The position numbers were made by a program, and so were the translations under genes. Shown here piece after piece: positions 46,063-52,560 of a stretch of DNA of 64,000 nt (position 1 is its first letter; the number at the start of each line of letters is the position of its first letter). Source of the stretch: Sulfuritalea sp. (GTDB lineage: Bacteria; Pseudomonadota; Gammaproteobacteria; Burkholderiales; Rhodocyclaceae); contig JAUSCI010000075.1 in NCBI GenBank assembly GCA_030651305.1, positions 1-64,000 of the forward strand, given 5' to 3'. A model generated the notes under the pieces. The model searched no databases. It had not been told where the DNA came from and saw only the letters and a program-made list of their open reading frames with translations.

Positions 46063-46163
46063 CCCCGGCCGTCCCCGGCAGGCCCGTGGCTCCGTCAGAT
46101 TTTTGATTCCTCCGCCCCGGGCCAGCCGGCGCCGGCCTGAGTGCCGTGTCGCCAGCGCCGACT
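46063..46163. repeat. 101-bp direct repeat, copy 1 (contains stem-loop and dispersed motif)
   Basis: 6 mismatches in 101 bp by eye against 46926-47026. Confidence 0.95.
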
Positions 46164-46254
46164 TTCAAGGCGCTGCCGGCCTCATCGCGGACGATTTGCG
46201 CTCCGGCTCGAGTCGGCATAAACTAGTCAGATGACTGGTCATCGGAGATACGCC

Positions 46255-46509
46255 ATGAATACTTGGCCCGTGCAAGACGCCAAAGCCCGTTTCAGCGAAC
46301 TGCTGGATGCCTGCGTCAGCGAAGGTCCGCAGGTCGTTACGCGGCGCGGTTCGGAAACGGCCGTGCTGATTCCCATCGCGGAATGGAAACGGCTGCGCGA
46401 CGCGGCGCGCCCGTCGCTGAAGGAACTGCTGCTGTCCGCCTCCACTCGAGCGAATCTGGCGCTGCCGGCGCGCGGCAAGGCAAAGCGTCGCGCCCCGCCC
46501 GCGCTTTGA
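46255..46509 (+). CDS. Phd/YefM-type antitoxin
   Basis: MNTWPVQDAKARFSELLDACVSEGPQVVTRRGSETAVLIPIAEWKRL. Confidence 0.93.
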   Translation: MNTWPVQDAKARFSELLDACVSEGPQVVTRRGSETAVLIPIAEWKRLRDAARPSLKELLLSASTRANLALPARGKAKRRAPPAL

Positions 46510-46516
46510 CGTTGCG

Positions 46517-46918
46517 ATGTATCTGCTCGACACCAACGTCGTTTCGGAATTGCGCAAGCCGCGCCCGCAGGCGGCCGTGATTTCCTGGCTGGAAGGCATC
46601 GACGACTCCGATCTGCACATTTCCGTGGTCACCTTGGGCGAGATCCAGACCGGCATCGAAATCACGCGCGAGCAGGATGCGGCCAAGGCGGCCGAGATCG
46701 AAGCATGGGCGGACCAGGTCGCCGCCGCCTACAACGTGCTGCCGATGGATGCCGTGACGTTTCGGCAGTGGGCGAAGCTGATGCACCGCCAATCGGATAC
46801 CGTGTATGAATATGCGATGATCGCGGCCACTGCGATGGTGCATAAGCTGACCGTGGTGACGCGAAACGTAGGCGACTTCAAGCGCTTCAACGTGCCCGTG
46901 TTGAATCCGTTTCGCTAG
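46517..46918 (+). CDS. PIN-domain (VapC/FitB-type) toxin
   Basis: MYLLDTNVVSELRKPRPQAAVISWLEGI ... VVTLGEIQTGIE ... NVGDFKRFNVPVLNPF. Confidence 0.95.
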   Translation: MYLLDTNVVSELRKPRPQAAVISWLEGIDDSDLHISVVTLGEIQTGIEITREQDAAKAAEIEAWADQVAAAYNVLPMDAVTFRQWAKLMHRQSDTVYEYAMIAATAMVHKLTVVTRNVGDFKRFNVPVLNPFR

Positions 46919-46925
46919 GCACAGC

Positions 46926-47026
46926 CCCCGGCCGTCACCGGCAGGCCCGTGGCTCCGTCAGGTTTTTGATTCCTCCGCCCCGGGCCTGCCGGCGTCGGCC
47001 TGAGCGCCGTGTCGCCAGCGCCGATT
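46926..47026. repeat. 101-bp direct repeat, copy 2 (perfect 12-bp stem CCGGCAGGCCCG/CGGGCCTGCCGG)
   Basis: Alignment to 46063-46163. Confidence 0.95.
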
Positions 47027-47152
47027 TTTCCACGGACGATCGGAGTCGACTTCAGCCCAGCTGATCTGATTCGGACTGGCTCATCCAGTGAGCTTTCGCA
47101 AGCGTAGATTGCAATCGGTGGTGACGATTCGGCATTTCTATGGAGGCGAACA

Positions 47153-47314
47153 ATGATCAGCTTTCTGAAGGGAGCAATGTGGGGATTTATCATCGTCGCG
47201 GTGATACTGTCGTCCATCGGCGGCTTATGGTGGCTTTTCCCGGCAGCCGTTTTATTCGGCTGGGTGGTCGACCGTGTGGCAAGGTTGATTTTTCAAGGGG
47301 ATAAACAGCAATGA
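47153..47314 (+). CDS. Small two-TM membrane protein (53 aa)
   Basis: MISFLKGAMWGFIIVAVILSSIGGLWWLFPAAVLFGWVVDRVARLIFQGDKQQ; ATGA overlap with next gene; GGAGG upstream. Confidence 0.7.
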   Translation: MISFLKGAMWGFIIVAVILSSIGGLWWLFPAAVLFGWVVDRVARLIFQGDKQQ

Positions 47315-47721
47315 AGACGATTGTTCTGATTTCCTGCGTGAGCAAGAAACTGGCACATGCGGCCAGGGCGAGAGACATCTATGTCAGCCCTTTGTTCCGG
47401 CTCAACCTCGCGTACGCCGAATCGTTGAAGCCGGACGCGATCTACGTGCTATCCGCAAAGCACGGCCTTCTGGCGCTGGAAGATCAGATCGAACCCTACG
47501 AACTTACGCTCAACACCATGGGAATCGGGCAGATCAGAGCATGGGCCAGCGGCGTGGTGTCGCAGCTTGCAGCGGTGGCCGACCTGAAGCGCGACCGTTT
47601 CGTGTTTCTGGCCGGTGACAAGTACCGGAAGTTTCTGGTTCCCCACATGGTTCATTCCGAGGTGCCGATGCAGGGCCTTACCATCGGTCGGCAACTTCAG
47701 TTTCTCAGCCAGCGGACATGA
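47311..47721 (+). CDS. DUF6884-like protein
   Basis: KTIVLISCVSKKLAHAARARDIYVSPLFRLNLAYAESLKPDAIYVLSAKHGLLALEDQIEPYELTL. Confidence 0.75.
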   Translation: MKTIVLISCVSKKLAHAARARDIYVSPLFRLNLAYAESLKPDAIYVLSAKHGLLALEDQIEPYELTLNTMGIGQIRAWASGVVSQLAAVADLKRDRFVFLAGDKYRKFLVPHMVHSEVPMQGLTIGRQLQFLSQRT

Positions 47722-48353
47722 GCGACATCTGCGCCCAGTTGCATCAAGCCTTGCGGGTACCGGAGCGGCATCGATTCCCCTTCGACACCAAACGGATTCC
47801 ATCGAATGGACTTTACGTGTTGTTCGAGAAGGGCGAGACGGGCCACGGCGGTGATCGGATCGTGCGCATAGGCACGCACACTGGCGAAGCGCAACTGCGA
47901 TCCCGACTCAAGCAGCACTTCATCACGCCCAGCAAGGACCGCAGCATCTTCCGCAAAAATATCGGTCGCGCCCTGCTGAACCGCAATCACGACCCGTTCA
48001 TTCGCGAATGGGAATTCGACCTGACTACAAGGAAGGCAAAGGACGAGTTGGGGCCGCTGGTTGATTTCAGGAAGCAGGCCGAAGTGGAACGGCAGGTATC
48101 GGCCTATATCCGGGAACGATTCGAGTTCGTGGTGATAGGTGAAGCCGAGAAATCTTCTCGCATGAACCTTGAGGCGAAGATGGTTTCAACAGTGTCGGTT
48201 TGCCGCGATTGTGGGGCCTCGGCGGGATGGCTTGGCTTGTCGTCGCCCAAGGACAAGATTCGCGCGAGCGGCCTCTGGCAGGTAAATGAACTCTACGGTG
48301 AAGGGCTTTCCGCGTCGGAGCTGGCAAGAATCCTGGCCAAGGTCAATAACTGA
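47718..48353 (+). CDS. GIY-YIG-like nuclease superfamily protein
   Basis: GLYVLFEKGETGHGGDRIVRIGTHTGEAQLRSRLKQHF (degenerate GIY-YIG core); ATGA overlap with upstream gene. Confidence 0.7.
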   Translation: MSDICAQLHQALRVPERHRFPFDTKRIPSNGLYVLFEKGETGHGGDRIVRIGTHTGEAQLRSRLKQHFITPSKDRSIFRKNIGRALLNRNHDPFIREWEFDLTTRKAKDELGPLVDFRKQAEVERQVSAYIRERFEFVVIGEAEKSSRMNLEAKMVSTVSVCRDCGASAGWLGLSSPKDKIRASGLWQVNELYGEGLSASELARILAKVNN

Positions 48354-48595
48354 TCCAGATGGAGGCCAATCGATTTCCGAAGCGGCATTGAGGTCGACTG
48401 GTGGTGATTACCAGGGCGGCCTGATCGCCGTACCGCCAGCGCCGACTTTCTTGCGGATCTATACCGCGCCAATTGAATTCGACGCCGACCCCTAATCGAT
48501 TGATGTTGAATCCGTTTCGATGAATGCAATCTGTCGCGCTCAAAATCAACGCTGAGATTTCCGAAGGAAGAATACCGACGCGACGTAGCATGTCA

Positions 48596-48666
48596 GGCGG
48601 TCAGAAAGTCAAATCACTCTGACCCTTTGGTTCAGGCGGGCAGAAAGTGAAATTACTCTGACCCCA
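48596..48666. repeat. Two tandem REP-like units
   Basis: caGGCGGTCAGAAAGTCAAATCACTCTGACCctttggttCAGGCGGGCAGAAAGTGAAATTACTCTGACCcc. Confidence 0.6.
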
Positions 48667-48718
48667 ATGACAATTCATTTGATTCACTAGCGTGAAGCAG
48701 ACTCGTATAGTTACGCGT

Positions 48719-49993
48719 ATGAAGTTTTCAATTGATGTTCACGACACAGAAGTATCACAGTTGCTGACGAGCTTGATTCAGATAACCGGAATTGAGCCGT
48801 GGAGCCGTCGTTTTGAATGGCTTCATCGTGAATTCGCCGAAAACCCGTTTATGGAAGAGTGGCTTCGGGAACGGTGCTCTATTGAGTGGACTTTCAATGA
48901 GGTGCTTTGTAGCCAACCCTTGACCCCGCAGTCGCCATTTCGAGTCGAAAACATGGCGCAGTACGAGTTGGTGGCATTTGCAGCAGGCGTAGTACGTATA
49001 TACGAGCGTCTCAGCGCGGTTGGGAAGCACAGACTCCGCGGAATGTTGTTAGACGGAATAAAGGAGGACAAGGGACTCCTGTCAATTCAGCATGAGGTCT
49101 CGACCGCAGTCCACCTCATGTGCCGCGGATTTGATGTCGAATTCCACGACTTGGAGCAGGGCGGTGGATTTGACTTCGTAGCTCGAAAGGATAGTGTCGA
49201 GATCGAAATTGAATGCAAGATGTTTTCAGCAGACTTGGGTAGGAAAATCCATCGTCGACGTATGGCTGTACTCTTTCGAGAATTAGCCAGCACACTCGCT
49301 CAGATATATCGATCGGCGTCTACGGGCCTGATCGTACGAATAATAATTCCGGATCGTTTGACGCCTTCTCCTGAGCAACATCAGGAAATAGATCAGGCGC
49401 TTCGGTTTGGCATACTTGGTGGTAAAGCAGTTACGCGGACAGAGTCCATTGAAGTTCAGGTGTCGAACTTCTCAATCGAGAGCAGTTCTTTCAGTAAGAG
49501 TCCCCAACAGCTTTCTCAGAGAGAGATACAAGACTTCGTTTCCGGGTACACCGGTCGCTCGAACTCAAACCTAATGATCCAATTTTCTCCGGGTCAGCGC
49601 GCTGTCGTTCTGTCTCTCGAAAGCCGAAAATCAGACGAAGTACTCAACGGAATGCACCGTCAGTTGCGGGAGGCAGCAAAGGGGCAGTTCACCAAGACTC
49701 GTCCGGCAATTCTCGCTGTTCAACTTCACGACCTTACAGTAGAACAATTCGCCGATCTCGCGCAATCGGACAGCCCATGGAGAGGAAATGCCACAGGGTT
49801 ACAGTTGATGACCTCTGATTTTCTACAAAGCCCTTCGAGAGCGCACATCCACAGCGTAGCCTACCGCTCGCATGGTTTGCTCACTGACAATCAAGCTGAA
49901 GGTCAGAAGCGAGTAGAAGGACTTTCTTATCAGATCGGGAATGGCTATCACCCGCTGTACAAAGACCCAAAGTATTCGGTTTTCGGCATCTAG
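48719..49993 (+). CDS. Putative PD-(D/E)XK nuclease-fold protein
   Basis: GGGFDFVARKDSVEIEIECKMFS matches a D-x(n)-ExEcK catalytic pattern; otherwise unfamiliar; start could be 48692. Confidence 0.65.
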   Translation: MKFSIDVHDTEVSQLLTSLIQITGIEPWSRRFEWLHREFAENPFMEEWLRERCSIEWTFNEVLCSQPLTPQSPFRVENMAQYELVAFAAGVVRIYERLSAVGKHRLRGMLLDGIKEDKGLLSIQHEVSTAVHLMCRGFDVEFHDLEQGGGFDFVARKDSVEIEIECKMFSADLGRKIHRRRMAVLFRELASTLAQIYRSASTGLIVRIIIPDRLTPSPEQHQEIDQALRFGILGGKAVTRTESIEVQVSNFSIESSSFSKSPQQLSQREIQDFVSGYTGRSNSNLMIQFSPGQRAVVLSLESRKSDEVLNGMHRQLREAAKGQFTKTRPAILAVQLHDLTVEQFADLAQSDSPWRGNATGLQLMTSDFLQSPSRAHIHSVAYRSHGLLTDNQAEGQKRVEGLSYQIGNGYHPLYKDPKYSVFGI

Positions 49994-50040: not shown

Positions 50041-50424
50041 CTAACCTAAATTCGCCACCCCACTAACCACATGCCCTGTCGGCACCAGCCTTGACGCCGG
50101 CTCGCAGTGCCGGGTCTGGTCGTCGAAGAAGAAGTCGGGTTCGAATTCGCGCAGGAAGTGACTTTTCTGCAGACCGCCGAGAAACATGGCTTCGTCGACC
50201 TCGACCTTCCATTCCATCAGGGTGCGGATCGCGCGTTCATGCGCGGGGGCGCTGCGCGCGGTGACCAGCGCGGTGCGGACTTTCATTTTGCATCCGGCGC
50301 TGTCGGCGCGCAGGCGGTGCAGGGCGTCGAGCAGGGGCAGGAAGGGGCCGGGAGGCAGCGGCTTGAGTGCCTGGCGTTCCTCGTGGTCCTGGAAGGCGGC
50401 GAGGCCCTGTTCCTGAAGAATCAA
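50041..50424 (-). pseudogene. 3'-fragment duplicate of the 5'-nucleotidase gene
   Basis: EQGLAAFQDHEERQALKPLPPGPFLPLLDALHRLRA ... near-identical to the C-terminus encoded at 51059-51961. Confidence 0.9.
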
Positions 50425-50445: not shown

Positions 50446-50661
50446 TCAGGCTGCTTCGAGATGAACGAGTGGCATGTGGTTAATTGCCAACTGGTGGATA
50501 TCGGCACGTTGCGAGGCATGCTGCACGTCGATCCCAACCAGGGCTCCTGCCGCGTCGTAGTCCAGTACCACTCCATCCACGACCTCGTCGGAGTCCACCG
50601 AAGGCCGCTCGGCCAGGTGGATATAGAGTGAATCGGTCGCCGCGTCGTAGTTGAGTTTCAT
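50446..50661 (-). CDS. DUF2283-like protein
   Basis: MKLNYDAATDSLYIHLAERPSVDSDEVVDGVVLDYDAAGALVGIDVQHAS. Confidence 0.9.
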   Translation of the reverse strand: MKLNYDAATDSLYIHLAERPSVDSDEVVDGVVLDYDAAGALVGIDVQHASQRADIHQLAINHMPLVHLEAA

Positions 50662-50894
50662 GGCTTGAATCTCCTGTCGGGGAATGCATTGTGCAGCGTG
50701 ACACCATCCGGCAGCGTTACGACACGTAGATGGCGTCCGAGTTCCTCAATCCAGATCCAGTATCGCACGCGCCCGTCCTCGGGCTGGACTTCGCGTCGTA
50801 CCGGATTCCGTAGCGCCTCGATACACCATTCCAAACGAATGTAGGGTCGCTTTTCTATCACATCGTTGCGGAAGTAGTCGGTCATCGGCTGCAT
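50658..50894 (-). CDS. DUF4258-like partner of the DUF2283 protein
   Basis: Overlaps DUF2283 gene start; WIWIEELGRHLRVVTLPDGVTLHNAFPDRRF. Confidence 0.65.
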   Translation of the reverse strand: MQPMTDYFRNDVIEKRPYIRLEWCIEALRNPVRREVQPEDGRVRYWIWIEELGRHLRVVTLPDGVTLHNAFPDRRFKP

Positions 50895-51058
50895 GCAAGC
50901 ATGTTGCCGGCCATCCCGTGCCACGTCAAGCCAAACGCCGCGACAGCCAAACGCCGTGCCACCAGCGTCGACTCCCGCGACTCGCGCTTTTAGCCGGTAG
51001 GACTCACCATTAGTGACATAAGGTTGGCTTGAGATAGACCGGCTGATCCGTTTGGATG

Positions 51059-51961
51059 CTAAGCAGAATTCGCCACCCCGCTAACCACATGCCCCGTCGG
51101 CACCAGCCTCGACGCCGGCTCGCAATGCCTGGTCTGGTCGTCGAAGAAGAAGTCGGGTTCGAATTCACTGAGGAAGCGTGATTTCTCCAGGCCGCCGAGG
51201 AACATCGCCTCGTCGACTTCCACCTTCCATTCCATCAGGGTGCGGATCGCGCGTTCGTGTGCGGGGGCGCTGCGCGCGGTGACCAGCGCGGTGCGGACTT
51301 TCATTGTTCCGCCGGCGCTGGCGGCGCGCAGGCGGTGCAGGGCTTCGAGCAGGGGCAGGAAGGGGCCGGGCGGCAGCGGCTTGAGTGCCTGGCGCTCTTC
51401 GTGGTCCTGAAAGGCGGCGAGGCCCTGTTCCTGGAACACGCGCTCGGCCTCGTCGGAAAACAGCACGGCGTCGCCGTCGAAGGCGATGCGCACTTCCAGC
51501 GGGTGCTTTTCGGCCTCGGTCAGCGATGCTGCATACACTCGTGCGGCGGGGAAGCCGGCGTTGAGCGCTTCGCGCACGTCGACTTCGTTGGCGGACAGGA
51601 ACAGGTTGGCGCCCAGCGGCTTGAGGTAGTGGTAGGGCGGCCGGCCGCGCGTGAAGACGCCGCGTTCGAGTTCGAGGCCGGCGGCACTGGCGGACTTGAA
51701 TATGCGCAAGCCCGAGACCGGGTCGTTGCGCGAGAGGATCACTACGGCCACGCGCTGGCGTTCGGGCGTGTTGAAGGCCAGCAGCTTCTGCACCAGCGGG
51801 AAGGCGACGCCGGGCCGCGCCGGCTGGTCCATGCGTTCGAGTTGCAGGCGCATGTAGGTGGAATCGTCCTGATCTTCGAAGACGCGGTTTTCCTCCTCGA
51901 AATCGAACAGCGCGCGCGACGAGAGCGCGACGACGAGCTGGCCTTCGAGACTGGCGGGCAT
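51059..51961 (-). CDS. 5'-nucleotidase (cytosolic cN-I like)
   Basis: LVVALSSRALFDFEEENRVFEDQD ... FLSANEVDVREALNAGFPAARVY ... FDGDAVLFSDEAERVFQEQGLAAFQDHE. Confidence 0.9.
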   Translation of the reverse strand: MPASLEGQLVVALSSRALFDFEEENRVFEDQDDSTYMRLQLERMDQPARPGVAFPLVQKLLAFNTPERQRVAVVILSRNDPVSGLRIFKSASAAGLELERGVFTRGRPPYHYLKPLGANLFLSANEVDVREALNAGFPAARVYAASLTEAEKHPLEVRIAFDGDAVLFSDEAERVFQEQGLAAFQDHEERQALKPLPPGPFLPLLEALHRLRAASAGGTMKVRTALVTARSAPAHERAIRTLMEWKVEVDEAMFLGGLEKSRFLSEFEPDFFFDDQTRHCEPASRLVPTGHVVSGVANSA

Positions 51962-52188
51962 CAGGGTCTTCCTTGGGCGTTGCGGTCGCCGTGCCGCCAG
52001 CGCGGACTTTTGTGGGTAAGCATGATTGGAAACCGATGCCGGCAAGTATACAGCTAAACACCGCGAATCCTGTGATGACCATGATGTAATTATGGGTTTG
52101 ACATTTCCGATCAGCGATCTATGCTGACGAAGCCTGCCGCGTCCGCAGCGGTTGGAGTTCGTTAATAAAACCAGTCAAGGAGACTATG

Positions 52189-52428: not shown

Positions 52429-52560
52429 GCCGTTGAGCAGGGCGCCGCGTTCCGTGTGGTCCTGGAAAGCGGCGAGGCCCTCATTGCGGTACCCGCGCCG
52501 GGCGTTGGCGGCAAGCGCCGCTTCGGTGGAGATGACCATGCGCCGGCCCAAGACGCTCTC

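Follow-up and report, generated by a model that had tools for sequence, protein, structure and literature searches.

This locus raises the question of what three small, overlapping genes do together, and whether they make up a new defence system, as a first-pass annotation had proposed. Within the window (the whole 64,000-nucleotide stretch of Sulfuritalea sp. DNA that was analysed), the sequence and ORF calls place three plus-strand genes joined by ATGA overlaps exactly where that annotation had put them, in the following setting:

46063-46165, plus strand: 103-nt dispersed repeat, copy 1 (copies also in the related genomes L005 and L006)
46231-46509, plus strand: Phd/YefM-type antitoxin, upstream of the trio (PF02604, 1.8e-15)
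46517-46918, plus strand: PIN-domain toxin, VapC-like, upstream of the trio (PF01850, 3.9e-15)
46926-47028, plus strand: 103-nt dispersed repeat, copy 2 (94%), upstream of the trio
about 47142-47147, plus strand: GGAGG, Shine-Dalgarno-like, just 5' of the ATG of the first gene (from the sequence)
47153-47314, plus strand: ORF1, 53-aa small membrane protein (sequence and ORF calls)
47311-47721, plus strand: ORF2, M57A, 136 aa (sequence and ORF calls)
47718-48353, plus strand: ORF3, M57B, 211 aa (sequence and ORF calls)
48417-48450, plus strand: 34-nt piece of the 103-nt repeat (88%), downstream of the trio

The ATGA overlaps lie at 47311-47314 (ORF1/ORF2) and 47718-47721 (ORF2/ORF3). Because both are retained in the two closest relatives, L005 and L006, and overlap or adjacency of the second and third genes recurs across phyla, they are not due to chance. 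The 103-nt repeats and the 34-nt piece flank the Phd-PIN toxin-antitoxin pair (46231-46918) and the trio. These intergenic repeats are possibly sites of cassette gain or loss. A Phd-related stretch also lies 5' of the trio in L005 (blastn, 85.5% over 46253-46494), and L006 has the trio and the 5'-nucleotidase flank in common with the window. This flank turned up in few relatives; within the genus, a clean empty site could not be delimited.

Several other features were observed on the 3' side of the trio. Copies of a tandem 33-nt motif, TCAGGCGGTCAGAAAGTCAAATCACTCTGACCC, stand 39 nt apart at 48593-48664. A 433-aa ORF (48692-49993, plus strand) contains a stretch, GFDFVA...EIECK, that by eye is like a PD-(D/E)xK nuclease core; in Pfam, NCBIfam and PADLOC nothing rose above noise for it, and its PDB matches were at chance level. 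Pieces of the 5'-nucleotidase gene are duplicated at 50041-50424, 51059-52045 and 52447-52514 (367 bp, 91.6%, plus a short third piece) and bracket a small ORF pair at 50446-50924. This pair comprises two overlapping minus-strand ORFs (50446-50661 and 50658-50924), which we take to resemble a DUF2283/DUF4258 toxin-antitoxin-type pair.

The second and third genes correspond to a catalogued defence candidate, PDC-M57 of PADLOC, with both proteins matched at full length and adjacent. M57A aligns to the PDC-M57A model with an E value of 3.5e-58 (residues 1-135 to model positions 1-135 of 138), and M57B to PDC-M57B with 1.2e-89 (1-208 to 1-208 of 211). The defence-like layout read from the sequence agrees with the PADLOC entry. 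The suggested novelty of the combination does not survive: the pair is already present in PADLOC-DB of 2023, and the trio is not the unit. The two-gene content is the same, and the locus here differs in having an additional, overlapping 53-aa membrane gene 5' of the pair. PDC-M57 is itself a computational candidate. PDC entries are the output of a guilt-by-embedding screen, and validation is still pending for the majority (PMC12988326); two other PADLOC candidates gave no defence in native-host tests (PMC12409345). Our search of the open-licence literature returned no paper naming M57, no test or mechanism of PDC-M57, and no paper pairing DUF6884 with a GIY-YIG nuclease.

A profile search with the third gene yielded 94 loci (80 kept of 166 in genome contigs and 14 in viral contigs), among which L064/L065, L086/L087 and L091/L092 are near-duplicates. 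The archaeal loci belong to Pacearchaeota, Micrarchaeota, Marsarchaeota, Thermoplasmatota, haloarchaea and methanogens, and the bacterial ones to Treponema, Bacteroidetes, Actinomycetes and Proteobacteria. M57A lies directly upstream of M57B in 57 of the 94 loci and downstream in 5 (4 within range, one 1 kb away). At 14 loci the two are fused in one ORF, including in the isolates Treponema bryantii (L026) and Capnocytophaga sputigena (L043), and at 18, about a fifth, M57A is absent from the vicinity. The two genes adjoin or overlap in 61/94. Across 51 separate pairs, the distance matrices of the two proteins correlate with r=0.763, the top value of 1000 shuffles being 0.148. The third gene is patchily distributed, present in 3/31 genomes of the genus and in 4 of the 369 genomes in a sample of the class. 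Archaeal and bacterial sequences are 45-60% identical, which implies transfer. M57B had no match in the phage record collection, and its plasmid matches were haloarchaeal only, at about 30%; E. coli genomes gave nothing at the DNA level.

Two side observations concern archaeal members. The Haloferax volcanii control genome matches both the PDC-M57B and the DpdC models, which suggests a tractable homologue in an archaeon with good genetics. In two methanogens, a 470-aa protein is fused to or near M57B at loci with no DUF6884 gene nearby (L068, 6565-8034; L052, 2223-3626, minus strand); the two copies are 29% identical (8e-60). A nitrilase-like reading of the L068 protein, made by eye, was dropped after PDB searches gave no confirmation.

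The membrane gene is a separate case. Its 53-aa product, with a top 19-aa mean hydropathy of 2.14, is probably a two-helix membrane hairpin. The dN/dS of the gene is 0.31 against L005 and 0.51 against L006 (rough values, from about 36 synonymous sites), compared with about 0.07-0.16 for the second and third genes. In both relatives the length (53-55 aa) and the overlap with the second gene are kept. On these grounds, the ORF is a real gene, with a dN/dS that points to purifying selection on its protein. By sequence, homologues besides the window's copy were found only in L005 and L006, making three genomes of the genus in all, and no convincing overlapping hydrophobic ORF was found at any other M57 locus. 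We therefore rejected the trio as a conserved unit, since the membrane gene was found at just 3 loci and the A+B pair alone is conserved. The pair recurs across phyla, and the membrane gene is a local, genus-limited addition.

M57A was predicted to be DUF6884-like and matches that Pfam family, PF21818, well above the threshold (6.1e-45; 153.1 bits against a curated cut-off of 30). The protein carries a CxxxK motif (C9-K13) and an LSAxxG motif (residues 47-52). Over 79 aligned rows, conservation is 98% for C9 and K13, 94% for L47, 98% for S48, 94% for A49 and 88% for G52, and C9, K13, Y24, S48, Y63 and Y105 are near-invariant. Profile comparison relates M57A to YaaA (probability 64%, E 6e-5), and the best PDB match is a YaaA structure (5caj, E 0.015). 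M57A also matches the DpdC model (5e-6), and the DpdC of a genome of the same order (PADLOC E 1.7e-90) reads MNIVLTNCSNRK...VVSAGLG, containing both CxxxK and SAxxG motifs. The core of ArcS has a C-x3-K motif too (PCSA[RK]KPY); an hhalign comparison of M57A with this core was not significant, though its alignment is colinear and places the CxxxK motifs on each other. DpdC converts dPreQ0 to dADG in DNA (PMC12839542). The Pfam authors' account of DUF6884 covers the two motifs, CxxxK and LSAxxG, a cleft with positive charge and a base predicted to be flipped; they also report that the DUF6884 protein YfjM of B. subtilis turned up among proteins that bind abasic and RNA-base lesions (PMC11701544). 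Taken together, the kinship with YaaA and DpdC, the common motifs, the described cleft and flipped base, and the YfjM precedent support a predicted base-reading role for M57A. In two Pseudomonadales genomes, a conserved 373-aa protein is encoded 3' of the pair (L046, 6661-7782; L047, 6676-7797; plus strand). It starts with LTNCSLTK, a CxxxK motif, and had no match in a PADLOC search; it is possibly a second DUF6884/DpdC-like protein.

For M57B, the earlier assignment as a GIY-YIG-like nuclease is supported as probable by conserved residues, predicted element order and one homologue, and not by structural or profile searches. The homologue alignment retains G31, Y33, R47, R50, G52, H54, R63, H67, S76, R79, G83, E124, R148 and E152, of which G31, Y33, G52, R63, H67 and E152 are conserved at 95-100%; the position of the YIG tyrosine is R50. 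We take the R63-x3-H67 spacing and the helix bearing E152 to fit the GIY-YIG plan (compare R27/H31/E75 of I-TevI). An AlphaFold2 model (pLDDT 95.9, pTM 0.91) contains strands at 31-42 and 45-52, helices at 60-68 and 77-89, a strand at 135-141 and a helix at 145-160. This beta-beta-alpha-alpha-(insert)-beta-alpha arrangement is the one expected of GIY-YIG, in which the last helix bears the metal-binding Glu, judged by element order only and not by superposition. The window's M57B had no match in Pfam. Five Pfam families were matched by at least three of its homologues, including GIY-YIG, GIY_YIG_2 and DUF123 (presumably a member of the GIY-YIG superfamily), and L043 exceeds the curated GIY_YIG_2 cut-off. 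Foldseek gave nothing significant for the M57B model against the PDB and viral models, with a few named GIY-YIG proteins among the weak viral-model matches, nor for a model of the fused L014 protein against the PDB. Comparison by hhalign with UvrC/YhbQ-type GIY-YIG domains was also not significant. Given these Foldseek and hhalign results, M57B is divergent, and it is probably a GIY-YIG-type nuclease with a predicted cutting activity.

Neighbouring genes point in two directions. Defence neighbours were picked by eye, so the following are selected islands: HmaC (1586 bits) beside the pair in Pandoraea terrae (L059), AbiEi/AbiEii beside L013, where the third gene occurs without the second, and IIG/DrmMI-like and HEC-05-like genes beside L067. 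On viral contigs, the pair has a head/protease gene on one side and a head-decoration gene on the other (L096), or lies near head or portal genes (L094 and L097). In the window's own subfamily, the inspected neighbours are mostly ordinary genes, with some for DNA repair. Read from their sequences, the neighbours in this close subfamily include exonuclease III-like (L027), UmuC/UmuD-like (L031) and RNase HII-like (L037) proteins, together with two HhH-GPD proteins.

Considering the PADLOC catalogue entry, the scattered distribution, the copies in prophages and the selected islands, we favour a defence reading. In it, the second and third genes form one unit, the PDC-M57 sensor-nuclease, acting in a type IV-like manner, most likely against phage or mobile DNA, and tethered to the membrane in this genome; we give this reading about an even chance. 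M57A would survey DNA and capture a non-standard base in flipped form (a modified, abasic or otherwise odd guanine or nucleotide) in a pocket built of C9, K13, the LSAxxG loop, Y63 and Y105. M57B would then cut the DNA marked by M57A, as in type IV modification-dependent restriction. In this genus, the 53-aa protein, translationally coupled to the pair, may anchor both proteins to the inner membrane at the site of DNA entry. Such a role is suggested by SNIPE, a membrane-anchored GIY-YIG nuclease that cuts DNA at entry (PMC13190303). CMoRE shows such a mode of action, with a modification sensor joined to a GIY-YIG nuclease (PMC12923530). No methyltransferase appeared among the family matches of the six ORFs at 46.2-50.0 kb, as would be expected for type IV restriction. 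A narrower version, in which PDC-M57 restricts phage DNA with 7-deazaguanine or otherwise modified bases, M57A reading or processing the base, M57B cutting and, in this genus, the membrane protein positioning the complex at the point of phage DNA entry, seems unlikely at present. It draws on the kinship of M57A with DpdC and on its CxxxK motif, which resembles those of DpdC and archaeosine synthase. Among the scanned ORFs at the locus, neither DpdA/B nor other dpd genes were found, the sole trace being the weak DpdC match of M57A itself.

The ordinary and repair-related neighbours in the window's own subfamily and the fifth of M57B loci that have no M57A weigh against the defence reading, and the main rival is a DNA-repair incision pair. 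Here the target of M57A would be the cell's own DNA, at a damaged base, a ribonucleotide or an abasic site, with M57B nicking next to it, like UvrC or AP endonucleases. The lesion binding of YfjM (PMC11701544), the exonuclease III-, UmuC/UmuD- and RNase HII-like and HhH-GPD neighbours, and the fused form, which suits a repair enzyme, all accord with such a function. A repair pair would not be expected to be so patchy (4/369), to show an archaeal-bacterial identity implying transfer, or to occur in phage head modules and next to Hma, AbiE and IIG-like genes, and we consider it somewhat unlikely. The lack of significant Foldseek and UvrC/YhbQ hhalign matches and the arginine in place of the YIG tyrosine would suit a nucleic-acid-binding protein of GIY-YIG-like look that is not a nuclease. 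The near-invariant GxY, RxG, R63-x3-H67 and E152, and the fact that GIY-YIG, GIY_YIG_2 and DUF123 make up three of the five Pfam families matched by at least three members, make that decidedly improbable.

The first-pass annotation had left the choice between abortive infection and restriction. Type IV-like restriction by a DNA-recognising nuclease pair, or incision in DNA repair, fits the families better, and abortive infection is not specifically indicated. In a toxin or abortive-infection module, M57B would cut host nucleic acid once M57A or the membrane protein detects an infection, with the 53-aa protein as sensor or restraint. An operon with a small membrane protein, the adjoining Phd-PIN module and the toxicity of SNIPE delta-TM, in which a GIY-YIG nuclease is freed of its membrane tether (PMC13190303), lend this some appeal. 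However, the membrane gene was found at only 3 loci, and the two proteins are often fused in one, unlike a toxin-antitoxin pair, so we hold it quite unlikely. GIY-YIG nucleases are common homing enzymes, and copies of the pair lie between phage structural genes, as they might in a selfish homing-type unit, a free-standing nuclease with a DNA-binding partner spreading through target-site cutting. Against this stand the many unrelated chromosomal neighbourhoods, the defence-island copies and a DUF6884 partner that is no homing DNA-binding module, and such a unit is highly improbable. For the favoured sensor-nuclease reading, the natural fusions, the parallel divergence of the two proteins, the conservation of candidate active-site residues in both, and the kinship with DpdC, which handles bases, give the PDC-M57 catalogue entry a concrete mechanism that can be tested, one that would be truly interesting should the 7-deazaguanine link prove correct.

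Among known systems, DpdC resembles M57A in the profile match and the common CxxxK and SAxxG motifs; it is longer, modifies the host's own DNA, and belongs with dpd partners not seen at the window locus. YaaA (PF03883) and YfjM (DUF6884) belong to a related fold family by profile comparison and the Pfam account (PMC11701544). They differ in not being described as nuclease-paired, YaaA being an oxidative-stress DNA-binding protein. SNIPE likewise combines a membrane part, a DNA-binding DUF and a GIY-YIG nuclease (PMC13190303), but as one polypeptide with DUF4041, which had no match among the scanned ORFs; here the parts are on separate chains and the membrane protein is genus-limited. CMoRE/PD-T4-3, a type IV restriction system, also joins a GIY-YIG nuclease to a DNA-modification sensor, and its direct degradation of phage DNA is the parallel proposed for M57 (PMC12923530). 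CMoRE differs in being a single protein that carries a GIYxY-YIG motif and senses 5hmC/5ghmC through an unrelated fold, whereas the M57 sensor would be DUF6884. If M57 does restrict base-modified DNA, it would add a further sensor fold to type IV restriction, beside CMoRE and SNIPE, two recently reported GIY-YIG systems.
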